Positions 1 through 15,872 of a DNA stretch of 64,000 nt are shown here, in pieces (positions within the stretch are counted from its first letter, which is position 1; every line of letters starts with the position of its first letter). Origin of the DNA: Deltaproteobacteria bacterium (GTDB lineage Bacteria; Desulfobacterota_D; UBA1144; Nemesobacterales; UBA2774). Location of the stretch: NCBI GenBank assembly GCA_029262275.1, contig JAJCZS010000042.1, forward strand, positions 21,257 to 85,256, in the 5' to 3' direction. Below the pieces are notes generated by a model. The model worked only from the letters and a program-made list of their open reading frames with translations, did no database searches and was not told where the DNA came from. Both the position numbers and the translations under genes were made by a program.

Positions 1-114
1 GAGGCTCTCCGTGAATCGAAAGGAAATAAATCAAAAGCAGCTGCCTTGCTTGGAATTTCAAGAGATACACTCTATAGAAAGCTGAAGCTTTTTGATATTA
101 AGCAATTCAAATAG
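1..114 (+). CDS. C-terminus of a sigma-54-dependent (NtrC-family) response regulator, Fis-type HTH; truncated by window start
   Basis: Frame 1 reads EALRESKGNKSKAAALLGISRDTLYRKLKLFDIKQFK*, the typical Fis/NtrC C-terminal helix-turn-helix. Confidence 0.8.
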   Translation, partial: EALRESKGNKSKAAALLGISRDTLYRKLKLFDIKQFK

Positions 115-180
115 TGTATTACTTTCTGACATTAGACATCTTCTCTTAACTTCACAATCAATATTTTTTAGCTTAAGAAA

Positions 181-196
181 TGGCACTCTTATTGCA
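181..196 (+). promoter_or_regulatory. Sigma-54 (RpoN) -24/-12 promoter upstream of CBS-domain gene
   Basis: TGGCACTCTTATTGCA matches TGGCAC-N5-TTGCW; 42 nt upstream of the ATG at 238. Confidence 0.8.
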
Positions 197-237: not shown

Positions 238-645
238 ATGTTAGTAAAAGAATATATGACATCTAACCCAATTATTTTAAACCCAGATGAAGATGTTACA
301 AAGGCATTTAATTTTTTGTTAGAGAAGAGGGTTCGTCAGGCACCTGTTGTTGATAAAGGAGAACTTGTAGGAATTGTGTCTGATCGTGATTTGCGAATGG
401 CAATGGTTCAAAATCTAAAAATAAACAAACTAACTGTAGGTTTCGTTATGACCAAGGATCCTGTAACTATTACAGAGGATTGTAAAATGAGCGATGCAAG
501 TAAAATTCTAGGTATAGGAAAATTTAATGCTATCCCGGTTATTGAAGCAACTGGCAAATTAAAAGGAATAATCTCCACAACTGATATTATCAAGTGCTTT
601 CTGGATCAAACGGATGAAGATAATATACCTTTAATAACAAAGTGA
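238..645 (+). CDS. CBS-domain protein (tandem CBS pair)
   Basis: 135 aa ORF; two CBS-like repeats (VKEYMTSNPIILNPDEDV..., VGFVMTKDPVTITEDCKMSDA...GIISTTDI). Confidence 0.9.
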   Translation: MLVKEYMTSNPIILNPDEDVTKAFNFLLEKRVRQAPVVDKGELVGIVSDRDLRMAMVQNLKINKLTVGFVMTKDPVTITEDCKMSDASKILGIGKFNAIPVIEATGKLKGIISTTDIIKCFLDQTDEDNIPLITK

Positions 646-662
646 ATTTATTGAAAAGATTA

Positions 663-1379
663 TTACTGCTTTATCGTATGTGATTGATGATTATGATGTC
701 TTTCGCTGGGGACAAGATGAAGTGTAATATTCGTTAACCCCACAACAATTAATAATACTCCCGCAGCAATCGCAAGCCTCTTTGGGGCTCTCTTTAAGGT
801 CTTTTTGTATATATAAGGGAATGCGGATAAGGCAGGCACTGTACCTAGCCAAAAGATAAAAAGGATTGCCGCACTATATAGAGGACTTTTAGTAGTAACC
901 GCTCCGATCACAAAAATGTATACCCATCCACAAGGTAGAAAACCGTTTACTATTCCTAGTGTAAGTGATTTTACTGGTCTGCTTTGTGCGAGGGACCATT
1001 TGGCAGGTTTTGAAATCAGTTGTGAGATCGTTTTACTGGGCAAGAATTCAAGCGGTTTTCCCATAATAAGCTTATATCCCGTATAGATAAAGAAGATCGA
1101 TATTAAGATTATAGAAATAGTCGAAATTGCAGGGAAGTTATTTGATAAGAATGTTTCACCCAAAAGCCCCGCCACTATTCCAAGTGTTAAGTAGCTCATA
1201 AGTCTGCCAATATGGTATAAGCTCATATAACCGGCTGAATTGTTTACGGTTATTGCTATAGGCCCACACATTGTGACACAGTGCGTGCTACCCAGAATGC
1301 TTGCAATAAATACAGCAAGCGGTATTGATAGGAAAGACCATTGCCTTATGATTTCTTCAAATTGACTTAGGTCCGACAA
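663..1379 (-). CDS. Sulfite exporter TauE/SafE-like membrane protein (COG2836-type) at the end of the cbb3 operon
   Basis: Multi-TM ORF, GSTHCVTMCGPIA and GFLPCGWVYIFV motifs; overlaps ccoG. Confidence 0.8.
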   Translation of the reverse strand: MSDLSQFEEIIRQWSFLSIPLAVFIASILGSTHCVTMCGPIAITVNNSAGYMSLYHIGRLMSYLTLGIVAGLLGETFLSNNFPAISTISIILISIFFIYTGYKLIMGKPLEFLPSKTISQLISKPAKWSLAQSRPVKSLTLGIVNGFLPCGWVYIFVIGAVTTKSPLYSAAILFIFWLGTVPALSAFPYIYKKTLKRAPKRLAIAAGVLLIVVGLTNITLHLVPSERHHNHQSHTIKQ

Positions 1380-2775
1380 GTTTTACATTCTCCTGTATTT
1401 TTATCTTGTTATCATCTGTATCTATGAAATCCAATTTTATATTTCTAGATCCCTCATCTCCTGTAATAGAAAGTGGAAATTTGATAAATATATGCAGAGT
1501 TGAGTTCATTCCCCCATCAAGGTTTATAGTTTCGCTCTGAGATACCAGTGTTACCTTCTTTTCTTTCCAGATATCAGGCACTGCCATTTTTAGGTTTAGA
1601 TCTTCAAAAGTCTGGTTTTTTAAGTGAAGTTTGAAATGGTTAATTATCTCCTCACCGTTTTCCACAACTTGGTATGGACTATCTTTTCCCCTAAGCACTG
1701 TTATAACTATGTCTTCTCTATTGGAGATTGAAAAAATCAATGCTGAGAGTACTGCAACCAATAAAACTGTATAAATTGCTACCCTTGGTTTGAAGAATTT
1801 TGATTTGATTCCTTTAAGACTGCTTCCAGTTGCATATCGTATAAGTCCCTTGGGTTTTTCTATCTTTTCCATCACCTCATCACAAGCATCAATACATGCT
1901 GTGCATCCTATACATTCAAGCTGAAGCCCTTCCCGTATATCTATTCCAGTTGGGCAAACAGCAACGCATTTATAGCAGTCTATGCAGTCACCTTGTTTTT
2001 GTCCTTCAGGCACGATGCCTTTTCGTGGCTCTCCCCTTGCCGGGTCATAAGAAACCGTAAGAGAATCGTCGTCCATAAGCACCGACTGAAACCTTCCATA
2101 AGGGCACATAATTATGCAGAATTGCTCCCTGAACCAGCCAAAATCAAAAAGTATTACAGCAGTAATGAACCCCATAATAAGAAAAATTGTCCAGTTTTCA
2201 TAGGGATTGTGCTGGGTCATCTCAACTAGGTTGTCTGCACCTACGAAGTAGGCTAGAAAACTGTGTGCAATAATAAGACTTGCTACCAAAAATAAAGTCC
2301 AAAGTACGCTTAATTTGAAAAACTTCTTTATATTCCAGGGAGCTTTTGCTAGGTTGCGTTGTTGAATGTGGCTTCCAATGATCCAGTATTCAAGCCTTCT
2401 GAATACACCGTCTATAAATACCGTTTGAGGGCATCCCCAGCCACACCATATCCTTCCCCATACGGCGGTAATGAATGCGAGCCCTATTGATAGGAACGCA
2501 ACAATAAAAAAGATAAGGGGTGCATCATGAGCCCAAAAGGTAAGGCCGAAGATTGAGAACTGTCTATCGCCTATATTGAGCAATAGTGCTTGATGACCAC
2601 CTATTTTTATCCATGGAAGTGCTAAAAAGAATATAATTAGGAATATCTCAACTATATTCCGAGCCCGTCTCCAGAAACCACTTACAGGAGCTGGGAAAAT
2701 AAAAACTCTCCTGCCGGACTCATCCATAGATGCAGGGCGTTCATCCGGCAGGTTTCTTTGATCGAGTACCCTCAC
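1357..2775 (-). CDS. ccoG: Cytochrome c oxidase accessory protein CcoG (FixG/RdxA)
   Basis: WCGWGCPQTVFIDGVFRRLEYWI, CIDCYKCVAVCPTGIDIREGLQLECIGCTACIDAC ferredoxin motifs. Confidence 0.95.
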   Translation of the reverse strand: MRVLDQRNLPDERPASMDESGRRVFIFPAPVSGFWRRARNIVEIFLIIFFLALPWIKIGGHQALLLNIGDRQFSIFGLTFWAHDAPLIFFIVAFLSIGLAFITAVWGRIWCGWGCPQTVFIDGVFRRLEYWIIGSHIQQRNLAKAPWNIKKFFKLSVLWTLFLVASLIIAHSFLAYFVGADNLVEMTQHNPYENWTIFLIMGFITAVILFDFGWFREQFCIIMCPYGRFQSVLMDDDSLTVSYDPARGEPRKGIVPEGQKQGDCIDCYKCVAVCPTGIDIREGLQLECIGCTACIDACDEVMEKIEKPKGLIRYATGSSLKGIKSKFFKPRVAIYTVLLVAVLSALIFSISNREDIVITVLRGKDSPYQVVENGEEIINHFKLHLKNQTFEDLNLKMAVPDIWKEKKVTLVSQSETINLDGGMNSTLHIFIKFPLSITGDEGSRNIKLDFIDTDDNKIKIQENVKLVGPKSI

Positions 2776-3341
2776 TTACGCTCTACCTTTTCTCCCTGTG
2801 GTGGTTTAGCTCCTGGAGGGTTAGTTCCATATAGAGTGTAAATATAGACTGAAACAGCCTCAAGGGTCTCCTCGGGTATCACTCCCCTCCACGGGACCAT
2901 GCCCTTATCAGGAACACCATTGTTTGCAACTTCAAGGATTGCAGCAACACTCCCATCACCGTGAATCCAATAGTCATCGGTAAAATTGGGCCCTATTAGC
3001 CCCTGTCCCAGATTGCCATGGCAAGGCATACACTTTAGCATATATTCATTCTTGCCAGCCTCAACCACTTCGGGCTTATCAAGAAGTGAAAGATAATACT
3101 CTTCAGATTTATCAGACGTAGCTACTTGCGCTTGCTGCTGTTCAGATCTTATTGCACTCATTTTTTGAGCAAGCTCCTCATCTGAGGTGAGTCCCCCAAA
3201 GAAAGTGTAATAAGAATAATAGACAACAGCGAACACAATTGTTATATAGAATGTCATTAACCACCATCCGGGAAGTGGATTATCAAGTTCCTGGATCCCG
3301 TCATAGTCGTGATCTTTTATTAACTGGTCCTTGTCACTCAT
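2772..3341 (-). CDS. ccoP: cbb3-type cytochrome c oxidase subunit III, CcoP (one CxxCH motif)
   Basis: FixP N-terminal motif DGIQELDNPLPGWWLMTFY; single heme site CMPCH; 189 aa. Confidence 0.9.
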   Translation of the reverse strand: MSDKDQLIKDHDYDGIQELDNPLPGWWLMTFYITIVFAVVYYSYYTFFGGLTSDEELAQKMSAIRSEQQQAQVATSDKSEEYYLSLLDKPEVVEAGKNEYMLKCMPCHGNLGQGLIGPNFTDDYWIHGDGSVAAILEVANNGVPDKGMVPWRGVIPEETLEAVSVYIYTLYGTNPPGAKPPQGEKVERK

Positions 3342-3526
3342 TTATCATCCTCCTTCATCTCATGCTTTTCCTCTTCAAGAGGTAGCTGTTCCATTTTTTC
3401 ATATATCTTCTTATTCTTTTTGCTAAACACCGTAATCACAACAATAAAAAATGCTGTGAGAAAAAGAATAAGCGCCAGGTTTGTAAGCTCTATATTATCA
3501 AAATATGAAAGTGCTATTTGCTTAAT
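3338..3526 (-). CDS. ccoQ: CcoQ/FixQ-like small subunit (start uncertain, possible ATT start)
   Basis: Frame read by hand: (I)KQIALSYFDNIELTNLALILFLTAFFIVVITVFSKKNKKIYEKMEQLPLEEEKHEMKEDDK*; one TM then charged tail; ATGA overlap with ccoP; not in the ORF track because no early canonical start. Confidence 0.75.
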   Translation of the reverse strand: MKQIALSYFDNIELTNLALILFLTAFFIVVITVFSKKNKKIYEKMEQLPLEEEKHEMKEDDK

Positions 3527-5676
3527 TGTGGCACCCCCTCACTCGGAGTTTTTTGGCCAAGGCATTGAAGGTACGCAATTAAAGCTATAAGCTCCGTATC
3601 CTTGATTGATTCAAGTGATTTGTCCTGACTAATTAGCTCTTCATAAATTTTTGCAGCCTCTTTCTCAGCTATAACATCAGCGTTTGCAACTTGTTCATCA
3701 TTATAAGGAACTCCAAGCATCTTCATCACGCTGAATTTCTTTCTGAGAATGTGATAGTCAGTTTTCTTTGCTGCAAGCCAAGGGTAAGACGGCATAATAG
3801 AATTAGTTGTGATCTCCCTTGGATTAATCATGTGCCGTACGTGCCACATATCGGGATATTTGCCTCCTACTCTGGCAAGATCTGGCCCGGTTCTCTTGGA
3901 CCCCCACTGAAACGGTCTGTCGTACATTGACTCTGCAATGGTCGATGCCTCACCATATCTCAGCACATCAAATGGAAGCTTTCTTATCATCTGAGAGTGG
4001 CATACGTAGCAACCCTCCTTTATGTAGATGTCTCTTCCGGCGAGTTCTAAAGGTGTATAGGGCTCTGTTTTCTCACTTGAAGGTAGGTATTTATAAATTG
4101 AGAGTGTTGGTAATATCTCAATCACAGAGCCTACTAGTATCGAGATAAAAAGAATAATGGTGAAGACAAGACTTAATGCCTCGAGTTTTCTGTGTCCAGA
4201 ACCTATAGCTGTAACATCAGATTTTAAAGGAGGAACTTCTACATAAGATATTGTCTCTTTTTTAGGTGCATGTTTTATTGTTACCCAAACGTTGTATATC
4301 AGTAGCAGAAAGCCCGCTAAAAAGAGTGATCCACCTATGAATCTGACCCAGTAAAGAGGCACAATTCTCATAACTGTTTCAACAAAGTCTGGATACACAA
4401 GCTGCCCGTTCTCACCTATTGCTTGCCACATGAGTCCTTGGGTAATACCACTGGCTCCCATGGATATGTAGTAAAGGAGTATTCCTAAGAAACCTATCCA
4501 AAAATGCCAGTTCATAAGTTTCACACTGTGCATCTTTGTGTTCCAGAGCTTAGGTACCAGATAATAGATAATTCCAAACGTAAGGAACCCATTCCAGCCG
4601 AGTGTGCCCCCATGTACGTGTCCAATAATCCAGTCTGTATAATGAGCCAGAGAGCTTACGGATTTAATTGAGAGTAAAGGGCCCTCAAATGTGGACATTC
4701 CGTAGAACGTGACAGCTACAGCAAGGAACTTTATGATTGGATCAGTACGGACCTTGTGCCATGCCCCTCTTAATGTAAGAAGACCGTTGATCATTCCACC
4801 CCAGCTTGGTGCCCAGAGCATGATGCTGAATACCATGCCTACCGTTTGTGCCCAGTCTGGAAGAGCGGTGTTTAAAAGGTGATGAGGCCCTGCCCATATG
4901 TAGATAAATACAAGAGACCAAAAATGGATAATGGAGAGTTTGTAACTGTATATTGGTCTGTTAGCTGCTTTAGGAATATAGTAGTACATGAGACCTAAGA
5001 AAGGAGTTGTCAGAAAAAATGCAACCGCATTGTGTCCGTACCACCATTGAACAAGGGCGTCTTGCACCCCGGCGTATACGGGATAGCTTTTAAAGAGGGC
5101 TACCGGAATTTCAATTGAGTTCACTATATGGAGTAGGGCAACTGTAACTATCGTTGCTATATAGAACCATATAGCTACATATAAGTGCCTGACTCTTCTT
5201 ATTGCAATTGTGCCAAAGAAGTTAACGGCAAAAACAACCCAAATAACAGCGATTGCTATATCGAGAGGCCATTCCAGCTCGGCATACTCTTTACTCATTG
5301 TGTAGCCGAGTGGGAGGGTTATGAGGGCTCCCACAATAATGAGCTGCCAGCCCCAGAAGTGAAATTTGCTTAGAAAATCCGAGTAGTTACGAGTCTTAAG
5401 CAGTCTTTGAGTTGAATGGTATATTCCGGCAAAAATAATATTACCGCCAAACGCAAATATCGCTGCATTGGTATGAAGCGGTCTTATTCTGCCGAAAGTA
5501 AGCCATTCAAGCTCCAGATTCGCAGGCCAAAATGCTAACTGTAGAGCTGCTAACAAACCTACAGCAAAGGCCGCAGCTCCCCAGAATATCGTGGCGTAGA
5601 TAAACAATTTTACTATATCGTCGTCATAGACGATTCTATCCATAATCCCTTGGTTAGGTGCAGTTAATGAACTCAT
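3514..5676 (-). CDS. ccoNO: Fused cbb3-type cytochrome c oxidase subunits I and II (CcoN-CcoO)
   Basis: N-terminal CcoN with FYGMSTFEGPLLSIKSVSSLAHYTDWIIGHVHGGTLGWNG; C-terminal CcoO with GCYVCHSQMIRKLPFDVLRYGEAS and SKRTGPDLARVGGKYPDMWHVRHMINP; 720 aa in one ORF. Confidence 0.95.
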   Translation of the reverse strand: MSSLTAPNQGIMDRIVYDDDIVKLFIYATIFWGAAAFAVGLLAALQLAFWPANLELEWLTFGRIRPLHTNAAIFAFGGNIIFAGIYHSTQRLLKTRNYSDFLSKFHFWGWQLIIVGALITLPLGYTMSKEYAELEWPLDIAIAVIWVVFAVNFFGTIAIRRVRHLYVAIWFYIATIVTVALLHIVNSIEIPVALFKSYPVYAGVQDALVQWWYGHNAVAFFLTTPFLGLMYYYIPKAANRPIYSYKLSIIHFWSLVFIYIWAGPHHLLNTALPDWAQTVGMVFSIMLWAPSWGGMINGLLTLRGAWHKVRTDPIIKFLAVAVTFYGMSTFEGPLLSIKSVSSLAHYTDWIIGHVHGGTLGWNGFLTFGIIYYLVPKLWNTKMHSVKLMNWHFWIGFLGILLYYISMGASGITQGLMWQAIGENGQLVYPDFVETVMRIVPLYWVRFIGGSLFLAGFLLLIYNVWVTIKHAPKKETISYVEVPPLKSDVTAIGSGHRKLEALSLVFTIILFISILVGSVIEILPTLSIYKYLPSSEKTEPYTPLELAGRDIYIKEGCYVCHSQMIRKLPFDVLRYGEASTIAESMYDRPFQWGSKRTGPDLARVGGKYPDMWHVRHMINPREITTNSIMPSYPWLAAKKTDYHILRKKFSVMKMLGVPYNDEQVANADVIAEKEAAKIYEELISQDKSLESIKDTELIALIAYLQCLGQKTPSEGVPQLSK

Positions 5677-5879
5677 GTATCAACATCCTCCTTATCTTCC
5701 TTCTTTGTTTCCTTTATCTCGTAATCATCAATTAACATTCTCTCGCTAGGGGTAGTGAGGTCGTCATACTGCCCCTTCTTAGTTGCCCATATGAATGCAA
5801 ATAGAAATAGCAGGGCCATTGTTATAGATATTCCTAAAGTTAAAAATATTATGTTCATAAGGCTCTGCTCTTCCTCCAT
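5673..5879 (-). CDS. ccoS: cbb3 oxidase assembly protein CcoS
   Basis: 68 aa, N-terminal TM, FIWATKKGQYDDLTTPSERML typical of CcoS; located between ccoI and ccoNO. Confidence 0.9.
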   Translation of the reverse strand: MEEEQSLMNIIFLTLGISITMALLFLFAFIWATKKGQYDDLTTPSERMLIDDYEIKETKKEDKEDVDT

Positions 5880-8302
5880 ATATTTAGACTTGTCTGTCCG
5901 TAAATACTTGAGCCAATAAGCAGTAGGGAACTAAGAGGCATTAGTACAGCTGCAGCAAGTGGATTTATATAGCCCAGGAGTGCAAAAGTGCCGGCTACAG
6001 TGTTATATGCGATCGAAAAGATTGTATTTCTTCTCATCGTGCTTTTTGTTATCTCTGCTTGTTGCAGAATTTCAATTATGCTTGATAGGTCGTTATTTAG
6101 AATGTAGGCATCTGAAACTTTGAGACTTTCTTCAACACTGCCTTGGACTGAAAGTCCTACATCCGCGGATGAGAAAGCAGCAGTGTCGTTTAAACCATCG
6201 CCAATCATCATGGAATGTTCATTGTTTTTTAGAATTTGAGATTTCTCTTCCGGGCTCTGACTCCAAAAAATATTCTTGTCAGCTATGCCGAGCTTAATGG
6301 CAGTCTGTCTCACATTGTTCTCATTGTCGCCTGAGAGGATGTGGATTTTATATCCCTTCGCTTTTAATTGAGTAACTACATATTTTGCGTCTTCTTTTAA
6401 TGAGTCTCCAAGAAATAGCTCAGAGATAGTCTCCCCATTTTTATTGATAACTATTTTTGTAGTTATGATTTCGTTAATGTCATTTGAATTAGGAACATTT
6501 TCTGATATAAATTCGTAAATATGGTCATCAACCTGGGCTTCAATACCTTTTGTATATATGTGTTTAAATTCTTTTACATCCGGAAGTATCTCATCGTTGT
6601 CTAAGTAAGTCACAATAGCTCGTGCTATTGGGTGGTCGGATTTTCTTTCAATTGCTAGAATTGCTTTGCGGTCATAATCAGAGAGTTTATTTACATCCCA
6701 CTTGAGAATTCTATATACACCTTTAGTGAGGGTTCCTGTTTTATCGAAGAAAACATTTTTAATATTAGGAAGTTTCTCAAAAATATTGGCACTTTTTAAA
6801 ACGATTCCTTTTTCAACGGCGCTACGAAGAGAAAGCCCTAAAGATAGTGGAAGCGCAAACACAAAAGCACATGGGCAGGCTATTAGCACAAATGCCATTA
6901 CCCTATTTAGTGCAGCTGATGGATTGAGGAGCTCAGAAATTGTAACAAAAGATCCAATTGCAATTATGCCAACAAGTATTGTGAAGACTGTTGCAAATTT
7001 ATCACTGTATGTGGAGAAACTAATTTTACTCTGATAGCTTTTCTCGACTTCATTAAGGAGTTTTCCCATGCGTGTTGAGCTACCAACACTTGTTACTTCT
7101 ATAACTGCTTCATCTGAGTTCAGTATGGAGCCAGCAAAGACAATATCTTTTTTGAATATAGTTTGAGGGATATTCTCCCCTGTAAGTACAGATAAGTTCA
7201 ACTCAGCTCTTTTTGATAAAAGACTCCCGTCAATTGGAATACGATCACCATGCTTAATTTTAACTCTTTGACCCACTTTAAGTTCTTCGGTGGGCTCTAA
7301 AAAAAACTGTTTGTTATCGTTATCCCAGATAAGTATTTTGTTCTGATTGAACAGTAACCTACTAGTCGGTTCTTTTTTTGAAATTCTATCTTGTATGGAT
7401 TTAAGGAAATATCTGCTTGCCAGTAGCAAAAATATGAAAGCCGCAACTGAATCAAAGTAAATCTGATCAGACCCTTTTGCATAGTTATATGTGCTGAGTA
7501 AAAATCCCACAACAATAACAAACACTATTGGTATATCTACGGTTACGCGTTTAGCTCTAATTGAACTAACCACACTCTTATAAAATGGTGCAGCACAATA
7601 TGCAACTACTGGTAAGGACAATAACAGGTTTAATAGAGTGAAATGTTTCTCAAATACCCCCTGAGCTCCTGAGTAAATCGCTGCAGAAAGTAGCATAATA
7701 TTCCCGGCACATACAGCTGCTATAGATATTCTAATAAGAGACTTTCTATTCTCTTTGTGCTTTAGATTTTGTGCTTCTTCATCAAGTTTTATAGGGTGCG
7801 CTTGATATCCGAATCTTTTTACTATTTCTGGAAAACTCGAGAACAGTTTGTCTGGTGTAAAGTAAACTGTCGCGACATTAGTCGACATATTTAGAGAAAC
7901 TGACTCTATATGTGTTGAGTAATCGGAAATCTTTTCAATAAGCCAAAGACATGCTCCGCAGTGTATTCCCTCAATATAAAAATTCATTCTAAGAGGATAT
8001 TTAGGATCAGAGTACTGTTTGATGAAATTGTCCTGATTAATGTATCCATAATCTTCTTTAGAGTCTGGATCAATAGGGCGCCCAATCTTCTCTATATCCT
8101 GCTCTTCTTTGATTCTGTAGAAGTTCTCGAGCCCAAGGTTATTAAGCAGTTCATATACAGAACTACATCCGGTACAGCAGAAATAGTTGTCATTGGATTC
8201 CACAGTATTGGATAGACTAAGCTCCTCTCCACAATGCTGACAGTGTGTGGTTTCAGATAAACCTCTTGAGATTCCATAAGGTGTTGCTGTGGTTTTATTC
8301 AT
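5855..8302 (-). CDS. ccoI: Heavy-metal (Cu+) translocating P1B-type ATPase CcoI/FixI
   Basis: HMA motif GIHCGACLWLIE, CPC motif IACPCAFVFALP, DKTGTLTKG phosphorylation site, N-terminal Cys-rich CTGCSSVYELL. Confidence 0.93.
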   Translation of the reverse strand: MNKTTATPYGISRGLSETTHCQHCGEELSLSNTVESNDNYFCCTGCSSVYELLNNLGLENFYRIKEEQDIEKIGRPIDPDSKEDYGYINQDNFIKQYSDPKYPLRMNFYIEGIHCGACLWLIEKISDYSTHIESVSLNMSTNVATVYFTPDKLFSSFPEIVKRFGYQAHPIKLDEEAQNLKHKENRKSLIRISIAAVCAGNIMLLSAAIYSGAQGVFEKHFTLLNLLLSLPVVAYCAAPFYKSVVSSIRAKRVTVDIPIVFVIVVGFLLSTYNYAKGSDQIYFDSVAAFIFLLLASRYFLKSIQDRISKKEPTSRLLFNQNKILIWDNDNKQFFLEPTEELKVGQRVKIKHGDRIPIDGSLLSKRAELNLSVLTGENIPQTIFKKDIVFAGSILNSDEAVIEVTSVGSSTRMGKLLNEVEKSYQSKISFSTYSDKFATVFTILVGIIAIGSFVTISELLNPSAALNRVMAFVLIACPCAFVFALPLSLGLSLRSAVEKGIVLKSANIFEKLPNIKNVFFDKTGTLTKGVYRILKWDVNKLSDYDRKAILAIERKSDHPIARAIVTYLDNDEILPDVKEFKHIYTKGIEAQVDDHIYEFISENVPNSNDINEIITTKIVINKNGETISELFLGDSLKEDAKYVVTQLKAKGYKIHILSGDNENNVRQTAIKLGIADKNIFWSQSPEEKSQILKNNEHSMMIGDGLNDTAAFSSADVGLSVQGSVEESLKVSDAYILNNDLSSIIEILQQAEITKSTMRRNTIFSIAYNTVAGTFALLGYINPLAAAVLMPLSSLLLIGSSIYGQTSLNIWRKSRAL

Positions 8303-8334
8303 AATTGTAAATGTATGATTACACTACAAATAAT

Positions 8335-8350
8335 GGCAATTATCATGCCA
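8335..8350 (-). promoter_or_regulatory. Sigma-54-like -24/-12 promoter for the ccoI-led operon
   Basis: Minus strand TGGCATGATAATTGCC: GG-N10-GC spacing, 33 nt upstream of the ccoI ATG. Confidence 0.65.
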
Positions 8351-8392
8351 AGCTGATTTGCAATGAATACTAGGAGTTTTTAACTGGAGGAA

Positions 8393-8432
8393 TGTCAGAT
8401 GTACGAAAGTCTGACAGTTAAGAGATCTGACA
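8393..8432. promoter_or_regulatory. Candidate activator (UAS) cluster: TGTCAGA-N10-TCTGACA plus a third TCTGACA
   Basis: Perfect 7-bp inverted repeat 8393-8399/8410-8416 and additional direct half-site 8426-8432, about 45-80 bp upstream of the minus-strand sigma-54-like promoter. Confidence 0.55.
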
Positions 8433-8467
8433 AATAGGATGTTGTAGTGTTTTAACTAAGGGAATAA

Positions 8468-8499
8468 TGGCGGTCGATGGGGATTCGAACCCCGAACAT
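8468..8499 (-). repeat. Decayed tRNA 3'-end-like fragment (possible old att site)
   Basis: tggcggtcgatggggattcgaaccccgaac resembles the tRNA-Arg 3' end at 15796 (TGGCGGGCGATGGGGGATTCGAACCCCCGAC) with a substitution and shortened T-stem. Confidence 0.6.
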
Positions 8500-8640
8500 A
8501 TGCATCGAATATATATTTGAATAGCCTGAACTACAAAACCAGTGTATTCATCCCACAAAATGTTTTTAAATAATTCCAATGACTTAGAAAATGATTTAAA
8601 ATAGATTTTATAAGCATCTTTTAAAAGGAGGGATTGTGAT

Positions 8641-9204
8641 ATGAAGGTTAAAATTATTCTTAAATTTGTGTTTTTATTTATGTTACTAGCTTTTCAGTTT
8701 AGTTGTGACAATGATGGCAATGCCCAACAAATAAGTAATGAATTGAATATTATTTACTCAGGGAGTTTTTTTCCTGCTCCTGAAAAAACTGATACCAATG
8801 ATGACGGTAGGCCTGGGAGTCTAAGAACATACGCAGGTGAGGGGTCCTTTGGGAGTTCGATCATAACTATACTTGACGAATTTGCCCAGCCTATTCCTCC
8901 TGTGAACTGTCCTTTGGATAATCTCGAATTTGACCTTGTAAAAGGTAGTTTCATAATCAGAGTCGGTAATGGAGACCTCTTGCTGGGAACGGTTGAATCC
9001 GGATTTAGCTGCTTTGACCCTATTACAAGAAGGTCCGAAATTACTGAAGAAGGTGTGATAACAGAAGGCACAGGTCAATTTGCCGGTGTTGCAGGCACTG
9101 TTGTTATCAGAACAAGCTCCATATTTCAGAACACAACCGCTGTAGACGGGTTTGCCTCAGGCGGGTCTACTGGAGATATAATGGGCACTTTAGAATTTGA
9201 ATAG
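8641..9204 (+). CDS. Hypothetical secreted lipoprotein
   Basis: Signal peptide with lipobox-like LAFQFSC; RBS aaaaggaggg; lies between two tRNA-like fragments. Confidence 0.7.
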   Translation: MKVKIILKFVFLFMLLAFQFSCDNDGNAQQISNELNIIYSGSFFPAPEKTDTNDDGRPGSLRTYAGEGSFGSSIITILDEFAQPIPPVNCPLDNLEFDLVKGSFIIRVGNGDLLLGTVESGFSCFDPITRRSEITEEGVITEGTGQFAGVAGTVVIRTSSIFQNTTAVDGFASGGSTGDIMGTLEFE

Positions 9205-9207
9205 GGG

Positions 9208-9253
9208 TGGCGGGCGATGGGGAATTCAAACCCCCGACCTCAGGCTTCGGAGG
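9208..9253 (-). repeat. Partial copy of tRNA-Arg(CCG) 3' end (distal att repeat)
   Basis: tggcgggcgatggggaattcaaacccccgacctcaggcttcggagg is 44/46 identical to 15796-15841. Confidence 0.85.
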
Positions 9254-9433
9254 GCTTTTCCACTTGAATTTGCAAACTCACTTCATTCTTGCAATTTGCA
9301 TTAAAGAAAAGCTCTTAAGAAAGTTTATAGAGTTAGATTATGTAGATTGTTTAGAATATTTATAGTCAGTATGGACACCTATTTGGACACTGCTAGTATT
9401 GAGATTGCTTTACTTTACAGTTACTTTGTAAGT

Positions 9434-9886
9434 ATGAGGAATTATGTAATAGCCTTTTTGATTTTAGGGCTTCTGCTTCCAACTTTTTTACCATTTGCAC
9501 CACATGTTGCTGTGCATGCAATGTATGATGCTCACATTGTACGCCATCTAGACTCGTCTCCTCATAACGGAATCGAAATTGATCACTCTCATGGAACAGA
9601 GAATGATCTTTATACCGAACATGAGGATATTGATCATCATGTTCCTACTGATTTCGCATCTTATTATAAAGACTTTCTACATATAGATTTGAAAAATACG
9701 GATCAAGCGAACTTGATATCAAAATTGATTTCGGTTCAGGATATTGGTTATGATCTCACAGTAGATATAGCAAAAACTAGACTTTATAAAACAACATCTC
9801 ATATGAGACGTGGCCCCCCAGTTGGTCATGTTTATAAACCCAACTCATCATCTTTATATCTCACCACACTTCGAATACGGATTTAG
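9434..9886 (+). CDS. His-rich small secreted/periplasmic protein, putative metal-associated, upstream of czcCBA (track ORF begins 9347)
   Basis: Start MRNYVIAFLILGLLLPTFLPFAPH gives a signal peptide; His/Asp/Glu-rich segment HNGIEIDHSHGTENDLYTEHEDIDHH. Confidence 0.6.
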   Translation: MRNYVIAFLILGLLLPTFLPFAPHVAVHAMYDAHIVRHLDSSPHNGIEIDHSHGTENDLYTEHEDIDHHVPTDFASYYKDFLHIDLKNTDQANLISKLISVQDIGYDLTVDIAKTRLYKTTSHMRRGPPVGHVYKPNSSSLYLTTLRIRI

Positions 9887-10010: not shown

Positions 10011-11289
10011 ATGATAAAAAAAACTCTTTTTATTTCGATATTTGTATTGCTTTTAAGTAGTACAATACCTTGCTTAGCTCAGACTTTAGATAAGCAAGCC
10101 GCGTTAAAACAAGCATTACAAAATAACCCTTCATATAAGGCAGCATTATCAGAAATTCAAGCTGCTTCGGGACAGCGGTCTCAAGCCTCGCTCCGTCCTA
10201 ATCCAAATACAGTGTTTGAAGTTGAAAATATAGGTGGTAGTGGAGAGCGTGAAGGATTTGAACGAACTGAAATAACACTAGGAATTGAGCAAAAGATAGA
10301 GCTTGCAGGAAAACGTCGGATCCGAACTGAGGTTGCAGATTTTGGTTATAAAATCATCCGGGAAGAAGCTATTGTTGAAGCTTTAAAGCTTCTATCAGAA
10401 ACTGAATATGCCATTATCCGGATGGCTGTTGCTAAAGAGCGCATTGAGCTTGCAGACAAGCGCTTGCAACTTGCTACCCAAACCTACAACATTGTAAAAA
10501 AACGAGTTAATGCAGCAGCCTCCCCCGATATGGAGCTTGCCAAGTCTGACATTGAGAAGATCGAGGCAGAAATAGAAAAACATCACGTTGAGGAAGAATA
10601 TAATATAGCTCGCAATGACTTGGCTCGCCTACTAGGTCTAGATGATGGTAATGATCTTGATATCAAAATTGATTTATCTGCTTTACCAAAGCTTGCAGAT
10701 TATCAAGCCGTACTAATTGCCTTGAACTCAGCTCCACAATTGCGTAGCCAGGAATTTGCAAAAATGAAGGCGCGATCTGCTCTAGATCTTGCAAAAGCAA
10801 CTGGTGTGCCTGATCCTACCGTGGGTGTTGGGGTTAGACAGTTTTTTGATAATGATGATACTGCTTTGGTTGCTACATTATCATTTCCCTTGCCTTTGTT
10901 TGACCGCAATCAAGGTGCTATTAAAAGTGCCCAAGCCAATGTGGTCCGTGTAGACGCACAAGCACGTGCTACAGAATTATCTATTTATCAGTCTGCCAAA
11001 CAGGCATGGGAATTATTCTATGCAGAATTGGATATAACACGCCACTATATGGATGAAATAATTCCAATTGCAAAAAAGGCTTATGATCAAGCAGATAAAG
11101 GATACAACCTCGGGGCATTCGAGTTCTTAGATTTGCTCGATGCACAGCGCACACTCAATAGAGTGCAGTCCGAGTACTTAGACAATATACTCGAGCTTTA
11201 TGAGGCTAAAGTACAAATCGACTATTTGGCTGGAACATACAAACCCCTCATTCAAGAGGTCTCACAAAACACAGTGGAGGATAAGAAGA

Positions 11290-11297
<8 letters not shown>
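10011..11297 (+). CDS. TolC-family outer membrane efflux protein (CzcC/CusC-like)
   Basis: Signal peptide; ALQNNPSYKAALSEIQAASGQRSQASLRPNP and GYNLGAFEFLDLLDAQRTLNRVQSEYLD typical of the OEP family. Confidence 0.92.
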
Positions 11298-15730
<4,433 letters not shown>

Positions 15731-15795: not shown

Positions 15796-15872
15796 TGGCG
15801 GGCGATGGGGGATTCGAACCCCCGACCTCAGGCTTCGGAGGCCTGCGCTCTAATCCACTGAGCTAATCGCCC
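15796..15872 (-). tRNA. tRNA-Arg (anticodon CCG), CCA encoded
   Basis: Reverse complement GGGCGAT TA GCTCAGTGGATTAGAGC G CAGGC CTCCGAA GCCTG AGGTC GGGGG TTCGAAT CCCCC ATCGCCC G CCA folds as a complete cloverleaf. Confidence 0.96.

Follow-up and report, generated by a model that had tools for sequence, protein, structure and literature searches.

The control of a cbb3 oxidase under oxygen limitation by a two-component system is known from FixLJ of rhizobia, whose output regulator is of the FixJ type, unlike an NtrC-type sigma-54 activator. The DosR dormancy regulon of Mycobacterium tuberculosis comprises a CBS protein, universal stress proteins, Hsp20 and a ferredoxin; DosR is a regulator of the NarL/LuxR type, which works without sigma-54. 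In Myxococcus xanthus, NmpR (of the NmpRSTU system) is an NtrC-like response regulator that acts with RpoN, and the gene of a CBS protein in its own operon is one of its targets (PMC11841059). The targets of NmpR also include a cbb3 operon led by a P-type ATPase, a universal stress protein, heme synthesis and hemerythrin, one target being induced by hypoxia; NmpR recognizes GCGCA-N5-TGCGC in paired sites, and its input comes from a phosphorelay that starts at a protoglobin-type heme kinase (PMC11841059). Regarding the DNA sites of bEBPs, the motifs described in Desulfovibrio vulgaris consist of TGT/ACA half-sites that are 9, 11 or 12 bp apart, and the site of DVU2956 has three conserved half-sites (PMC4641369).

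The locus studied here lies in a stretch of 64,000 nucleotides of contig C42 (referred to as the window), from an assembly of 2.48 Mb which is 97% complete. The gene order on this contig is a GNAT gene, the gene of a PAS-PAS histidine kinase, that of an NtrC-type response regulator, a CBS gene and then the cco cluster, which is convergent with the CBS gene (Table 1); the GNAT and kinase genes are to the left of the window, and only the last codons of the regulator gene are inside it. The response regulator has REC (PF00072), sigma-54 AAA+ (PF00158) and Fis HTH (PF02954) domains, and its translation contains the GAFTGA loop, which makes it a bEBP; it scores 388 bits against the NCBIfam model TIGR01818, below the cut-off of 558.6 bits, and is not NtrC sensu stricto. 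RpoN is encoded in the genome (PF04552, E 2.2e-54). The named close relatives of the regulator are mostly from Ca. Dadabacteria, and the named records of this group encountered in the comparison are metagenome-assembled genomes.

The original prediction was that an inverted repeat, TGTCAGA-N10-TCTGACA, and a third TCTGACA lie upstream of the cco promoter, with a matching half-site upstream of the CBS gene. These repeats are a real, conserved DNA control element; in Ca. Dadabacteria, an uncultured bacterial phylum, it precedes, in a fixed position, genes that serve respiration at low oxygen and the removal of nitrous oxide. We argue, with a probability of roughly 0.8, that the repeats form a 24-bp enhancer, in its copy at cco, on which the adjacent NtrC-family response regulator acts; this regulator would activate RpoN-dependent transcription by looping in response to an oxygen signal.

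Table 1. Coordinates of the features in the window
Feature	Position	Strand	Remark
NtrC-type response regulator gene, 3' end	1..115	+	proposed binding protein; full gene from C42:20006, kinase gene immediately upstream
CBS enhancer, 24 bp, TGTATTA-CTT-TCTGACA-TTAGACA	115..138	+	E 1.7e-7 by a model built without it
Sigma-54 promoter of the CBS gene, TGGCACTCTTATTGC	181..195	+	TGGCA-type -24/-12 site
Two-CBS-domain protein	238..645	+	predicted target
DsbD_2-family membrane protein	663..1379	-	last gene of the cco cluster
ccoG, accessory protein	1357..2775	-	
ccoP-like cytochrome c subunit	2772..3341	-	below curated ccoP cut-off
Fused ccoN-ccoO, cbb3 oxidase subunits I/II	3514..5676	-	
ccoI, Cu-type P-type ATPase	5855..8302	-	first gene of the cco operon
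Sigma-54 promoter of the cco operon, TGGCATGATAATTGC	8336..8350	-	conserved in relatives
cco enhancer, 24 bp, TGTCAGA-CTT-TCGTACA-TCTGACA (left, degenerate middle, right)	8393..8416	-	starts 66 bp before the -24 box, like the cco promoters of relatives from which the model was built
Extra TCTGACA, 9 bp past the cco 24-mer	8426..8432	+	not conserved in relatives

All the heptamers on which the prediction was based (TGTCAGA at 8393-8399, TCTGACA at 8410-8416, 8426-8432 and 125-131) are present, and the outer pair is a real inverted repeat. It was rejected as the binding unit, since the footprint obtained by aligning the promoters of relatives consists of a 17-bp dyad and a third half-site, which together form a 24-bp element, TGTMNGA-N3-TCTGACA-NCTKACA. 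The left and middle heptamers make up the dyad (TGTCAGA-N3-TCTGACA, N3 being the spacing of the best-conserved dyad), and the right heptamer is a direct repeat of the middle one, so that three half-sites (TGTM, KACA, KACA) instead of two emerge from the aligned cco promoters of relatives. The middle half-site of the cco copy is degenerate (TCGTACA), which explains that only the outer pair was noticed initially. What was taken for a half-site upstream of the CBS gene is a complete element, TGTATTACTTTCTGACATTAGACA (115-138), in the same register as that of cco: the distance from the start of the element to the -24 box downstream is exactly 66 bp at both. As for the third TCTGACA (8426-8432), it is present but not conserved in relatives, and may be accessory or occur by chance. 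The consensus of 95 distinct sites is approximately TGTMNNATTTTCTGACANCTKACA, in which the search pattern dictates the fixed letters and leaves the others free.

Both elements precede a promoter of the form TGGCAY-N5-TTGC (8350-8336 for cco, 181-195 for CBS). These are the only two -24/-12 sites of the TGGCA type in the window, and each has the 24-bp element at exactly -66; two looser matches are without it. The block between the cco enhancer and the -24 box (8351-8392) and its equivalents are A/T-rich and partly conserved, possibly an IHF-type bend.

The heptamer alone is of little weight: there are 20 copies of it in the window where 8.9 are expected, mostly outside the cco and CBS promoters, and it was rejected as a signal because it is not specific. 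This over-representation, and a tRNA-Arg fragment that starts about 30 bp away, would be consistent with the repeats being chance copies of a 7-mer, or part of the neighbouring tRNA-fragment or island sequence. The frequency argument holds for the bare heptamer but not for the composite site, which is far above chance; the exact pattern TGTCAGA-N(8-12)-TCTGACA occurs only once in the 2.48-Mb genome. The gene ccoI was sought in 61 genomes, and the close orthologs whose promoter region was available were aligned. Almost all of them have TGGCAY-N5-TTGC upstream and the same element before it; with few exceptions, its position is -66 or -67, and several families are represented. The composite site is kept upstream of both cco and CBS genes in relatives and, as said, is far above chance, so that neither of the two outcomes named beforehand as refuting the prediction was obtained. 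When the nine fixed letters are scored at -66 for all the sigma-54-like sites in the loci examined, the distribution is bimodal: 17 sites (some of them repeated views of a site already counted) have all nine letters, two have 7 or 8 and the others have at most 6.

A sequence-only model was built exclusively from the cco promoters of ten relatives, leaving out this genome and all CBS and nos promoters. Run on this genome, it recovers the cco (1.4e-15) and CBS (1.7e-7) elements, as well as one site upstream of a cytochrome c-nosZ operon (C11:132101, 3.3e-5) and one upstream of the GNAT-kinase-regulator operon (C42:17730, 3.9e-4). It also recovers a divergent pair (C11:122660/122728, about 1e-3) in the interval that separates the genes of a second CBS protein and of a small protein; the next match is at 0.37. 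The pattern TGTMNNNNNNTCKKACANNNKACA, which carries no promoter information, has 105 matches in the 61 genomes against 4 for the reversed pattern, and 4 against 0 in this genome. The fixed register in relatives, the promoters recovered by the held-out model and the reversed-pattern control all speak against chance or island sequence, which is refuted as the origin of the 24-mer and is extremely improbable as an account of the repeats; the extra TCTGACA at 8426-8432 could still be such a copy. No Rfam family overlaps positions 8200-9500. A model (R1) applied around more distant regulators, at 31 loci mostly from Acidobacteria, gave no matches, and an extension of the regulon beyond the phylum was rejected on this basis.

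Regarding the surroundings of the cco enhancer, 3' fragments of tRNA-Arg are found at 8462-8493 (91% over 32 bp) and 9207-9256 (94% over 49 bp), between the enhancer and an intact tRNA-Arg(CCG) gene (15796-15872). The tRNA-Arg fragments and gene enclose small ORFs and an RND-type efflux cluster (10011-15730). The fragments are probably attachment-site relics of an integrated island, the edge of which is about 30 bp from the extra TCTGACA. A 117-bp repeat is present beside a tRNA fragment (9282-9397) and, 79% identical, at L002 7601-7714, where it closely precedes the enhancer of the GNAT-kinase-regulator operon; partial copies occur elsewhere in the genome.

The position of the element relative to sigma-54 promoters is what one expects of an enhancer, a conserved upstream activator site at a helically phased distance. 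A strict -24/-12 site is found 40-120 bp away from 63 of the 95 distinct sites (distinct 24-mers were counted, and identical 24-mers can map to one locus), on both sides in seven cases; the same holds for 0.8% of 18,863 random positions. What does not favor the enhancer reading is that about one site in three lacks a strict -24/-12 site in its vicinity. In the forward orientation, the spacings are 65-68, 77-80, 85-91 and 97-99 bp, clustering near 66, 78, 87 and 98. The steps of about 10.5 bp correspond to about one helical turn, as predicted if the bound protein loops from one face of the DNA. The phasing persists when the 66-bp group is omitted (Rayleigh p about 4e-4), keeping in mind that orthologous sites and promoters are not independent, so that p-values are optimistic. 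The reverse spacings are mainly 75-80 bp, and are better matched if the distance is taken from the centre of the full 24-mer rather than from that of the N3 dyad.

Which protein binds the element can be approached from its distribution. Orthologs of the regulator, defined by at least 60% identity (the next paralogs are at about 46%), are present in 21 of the 46 genomes that were scanned for both. The pattern is found in 19 of these 21 genomes, against 3 of the 25 that have no ortholog (Fisher p 1e-7), and the co-occurrence includes genomes without a close ccoI ortholog (G006, G018, G028 and G030). The element is also in the promoter of the kinase-regulator operon in G000, in G002 and G003 (which share the 24-mer), G004, G030 and G032. 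Both observations are correlations which suggest that this activator is the binding protein.

Conversely, it may be that the element is a sigma-54 enhancer that serves another bEBP of the same genome, the adjacency being coincidental or reflecting only co-regulation. A search of the genome with the regulator gives 11 matches, and the element is found without a detected ortholog in G012, G013 and G022, which are 59, 80 and 93% complete, respectively; in the case of G022, this makes the missing ortholog not easily excused. Against this stand the co-occurrence across the 46 genomes, the sites that several genomes have in the promoter of the regulator's operon, and the location of the regulator gene, which is flanked by CBS and cco; we therefore consider it improbable that another bEBP is served. 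The opposite exceptions, regulator present and no pattern match, are G016 and G025. In G016, the ortholog (C30:14030-15191) is in two pieces with a stop, and neither RpoN nor the element was found; a joint loss of the three is possible, and a completeness of 88% leaves room for other readings. On balance, the sequence comparisons predict that the element is very probably bound by the adjacent two-component activator.

As for the signal, the closest PDB match of the first PAS domain of the kinase is FixL (4e-16), and His77 (proximal, heme ligand) and Arg97 (distal) align with the residues of FixL and are kept in most orthologs. The match to FixL alone is no proof of heme, since the PDB PAS domain 10jx has the same His and no Arg; judging from the residues, heme binding by the PAS domain is plausible. 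The kinase scores 180.6 bits against the NCBIfam FixL model, for a cut-off of 850 bits. The activator could be the right one and the signal not oxygen but the redox state, a nitrogen oxide or another ligand: besides the case of 10jx, the His/Arg pair is missing from the alignment in three kinase orthologs (L039, L044 and L048), and a nosZ target is also compatible with a nitrogen-oxide signal. Yet most orthologs have both residues, and the target set is centred on the cbb3 oxidase, whose known regulators respond to low oxygen, so that a signal other than oxygen is possible but rather doubtful.

We propose a mechanism in which the FixL-like PAS domain of the cognate kinase would sense low oxygen. 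Phosphorylated by this kinase, the NtrC-type regulator would occupy the 24-bp element as oligomers located on one side of the helix. From there it would reach RpoN-RNA polymerase by looping and cause open complexes to form at the promoters of cco, CBS and nos.

The prediction of a regulon consisting of the activator, the CBS protein and the cbb3 oxidase is supported, the binding of the activator being deduced from the above, but further members have to be added to it: N2O reductase, protoporphyrinogen oxidase, universal stress proteins, more CBS proteins and the activator's own operon. NosZ, NosD, protoporphyrinogen oxidase, CcoNO and CcoG pass curated models. The operon at C11:132101 consists of a cytochrome c gene and nosZ, beyond which are nosD, further nos-type genes and the gene of a universal stress protein. 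In relatives, the site-bearing promoters are those of cco operons, cytochrome c-nosZ operons, CBS genes, universal stress proteins and the kinase-regulator operon. They also include those of protoporphyrinogen oxidase, a ferredoxin with a heme-type radical SAM protein, Hsp20, hemerythrin, a ribosome hibernation factor, pyruvate:ferredoxin oxidoreductase, NuoA, FeoB and a small MSDYxxLYLIE protein; there may be chance sites among the targets seen in one genome only.

Two candidates were rejected. The multicopper oxidase of L223 is not retained as NirK, because CueO-like models fit better (none scores above the cut-off). A porin-like outer-membrane gene by the nos operon (L068 10325-11173, minus strand) is not a sure target, as it has only a weaker dyad at -71; this gene has its own sigma-54-like site and follows the regulator gene in some relatives. 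We also note a conserved protein of about 80 amino acids that starts with MSDYxxLYLIET and has no Pfam match (L217 3407-3646, minus strand; similar in G002, G010 and G013); its genes have the element and a sigma-54 promoter, and are divergent from a CBS gene in G002 and G003.

Regarding the regulon logic and the target set, the system resembles NmpR. It differs in its DNA site, TGTMNGA-N3-TCTGACA with a third half-site instead of GCGCA-N5-TGCGC, in that one PAS-PAS kinase precedes the regulator instead of a phosphorelay, and in having N2O reductase as a target, which is not described for NmpR in PMC11841059. With FixLJ, it shares a FixL-like PAS domain with the heme-ligand His and distal Arg, and the control of a cbb3 oxidase under oxygen limitation, whereas the output is an NtrC-type sigma-54 activator rather than a FixJ-type regulator and the kinase is far below the FixL cut-off. 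Half-sites of the TGT/ACA type, and a site with three half-sites, also occur among those of DVU2956 and other bEBPs of D. vulgaris, the targets of which differ. The similarity in target content with the DosR regulon is functional convergence at most.

The best reading is that of an autoregulated, O2-responsive sigma-54 regulon of Ca. Dadabacteria, in which we infer both the binding of the activator and the oxygen signal. A limited literature search found no description of the regulation of respiration in Ca. Dadabacteria, and a literature search found none of the control of nosZ by a sigma-54 activator. The control of respiration in Ca. Dadabacteria can now be approached at the bench from a consensus that lends itself to testing, together with a spacing rule and a candidate activator, and nosZ is linked to a sigma-54 activator. 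Together with NmpR, the system would make two cases in which an NtrC-type regulator controls a cbb3 oxidase, CBS and stress proteins, the DNA site and the kinase being different here. The chances are about even that, in several families of Ca. Dadabacteria, a single FixL-like/NtrC-type, RpoN-dependent regulon induces the high-affinity cbb3 oxidase and a Sec-type N2O reductase together, through an enhancer of three half-sites that is active in either orientation and at divergent promoters. If so, oxygen scavenging and N2O consumption would be one decision in these organisms.
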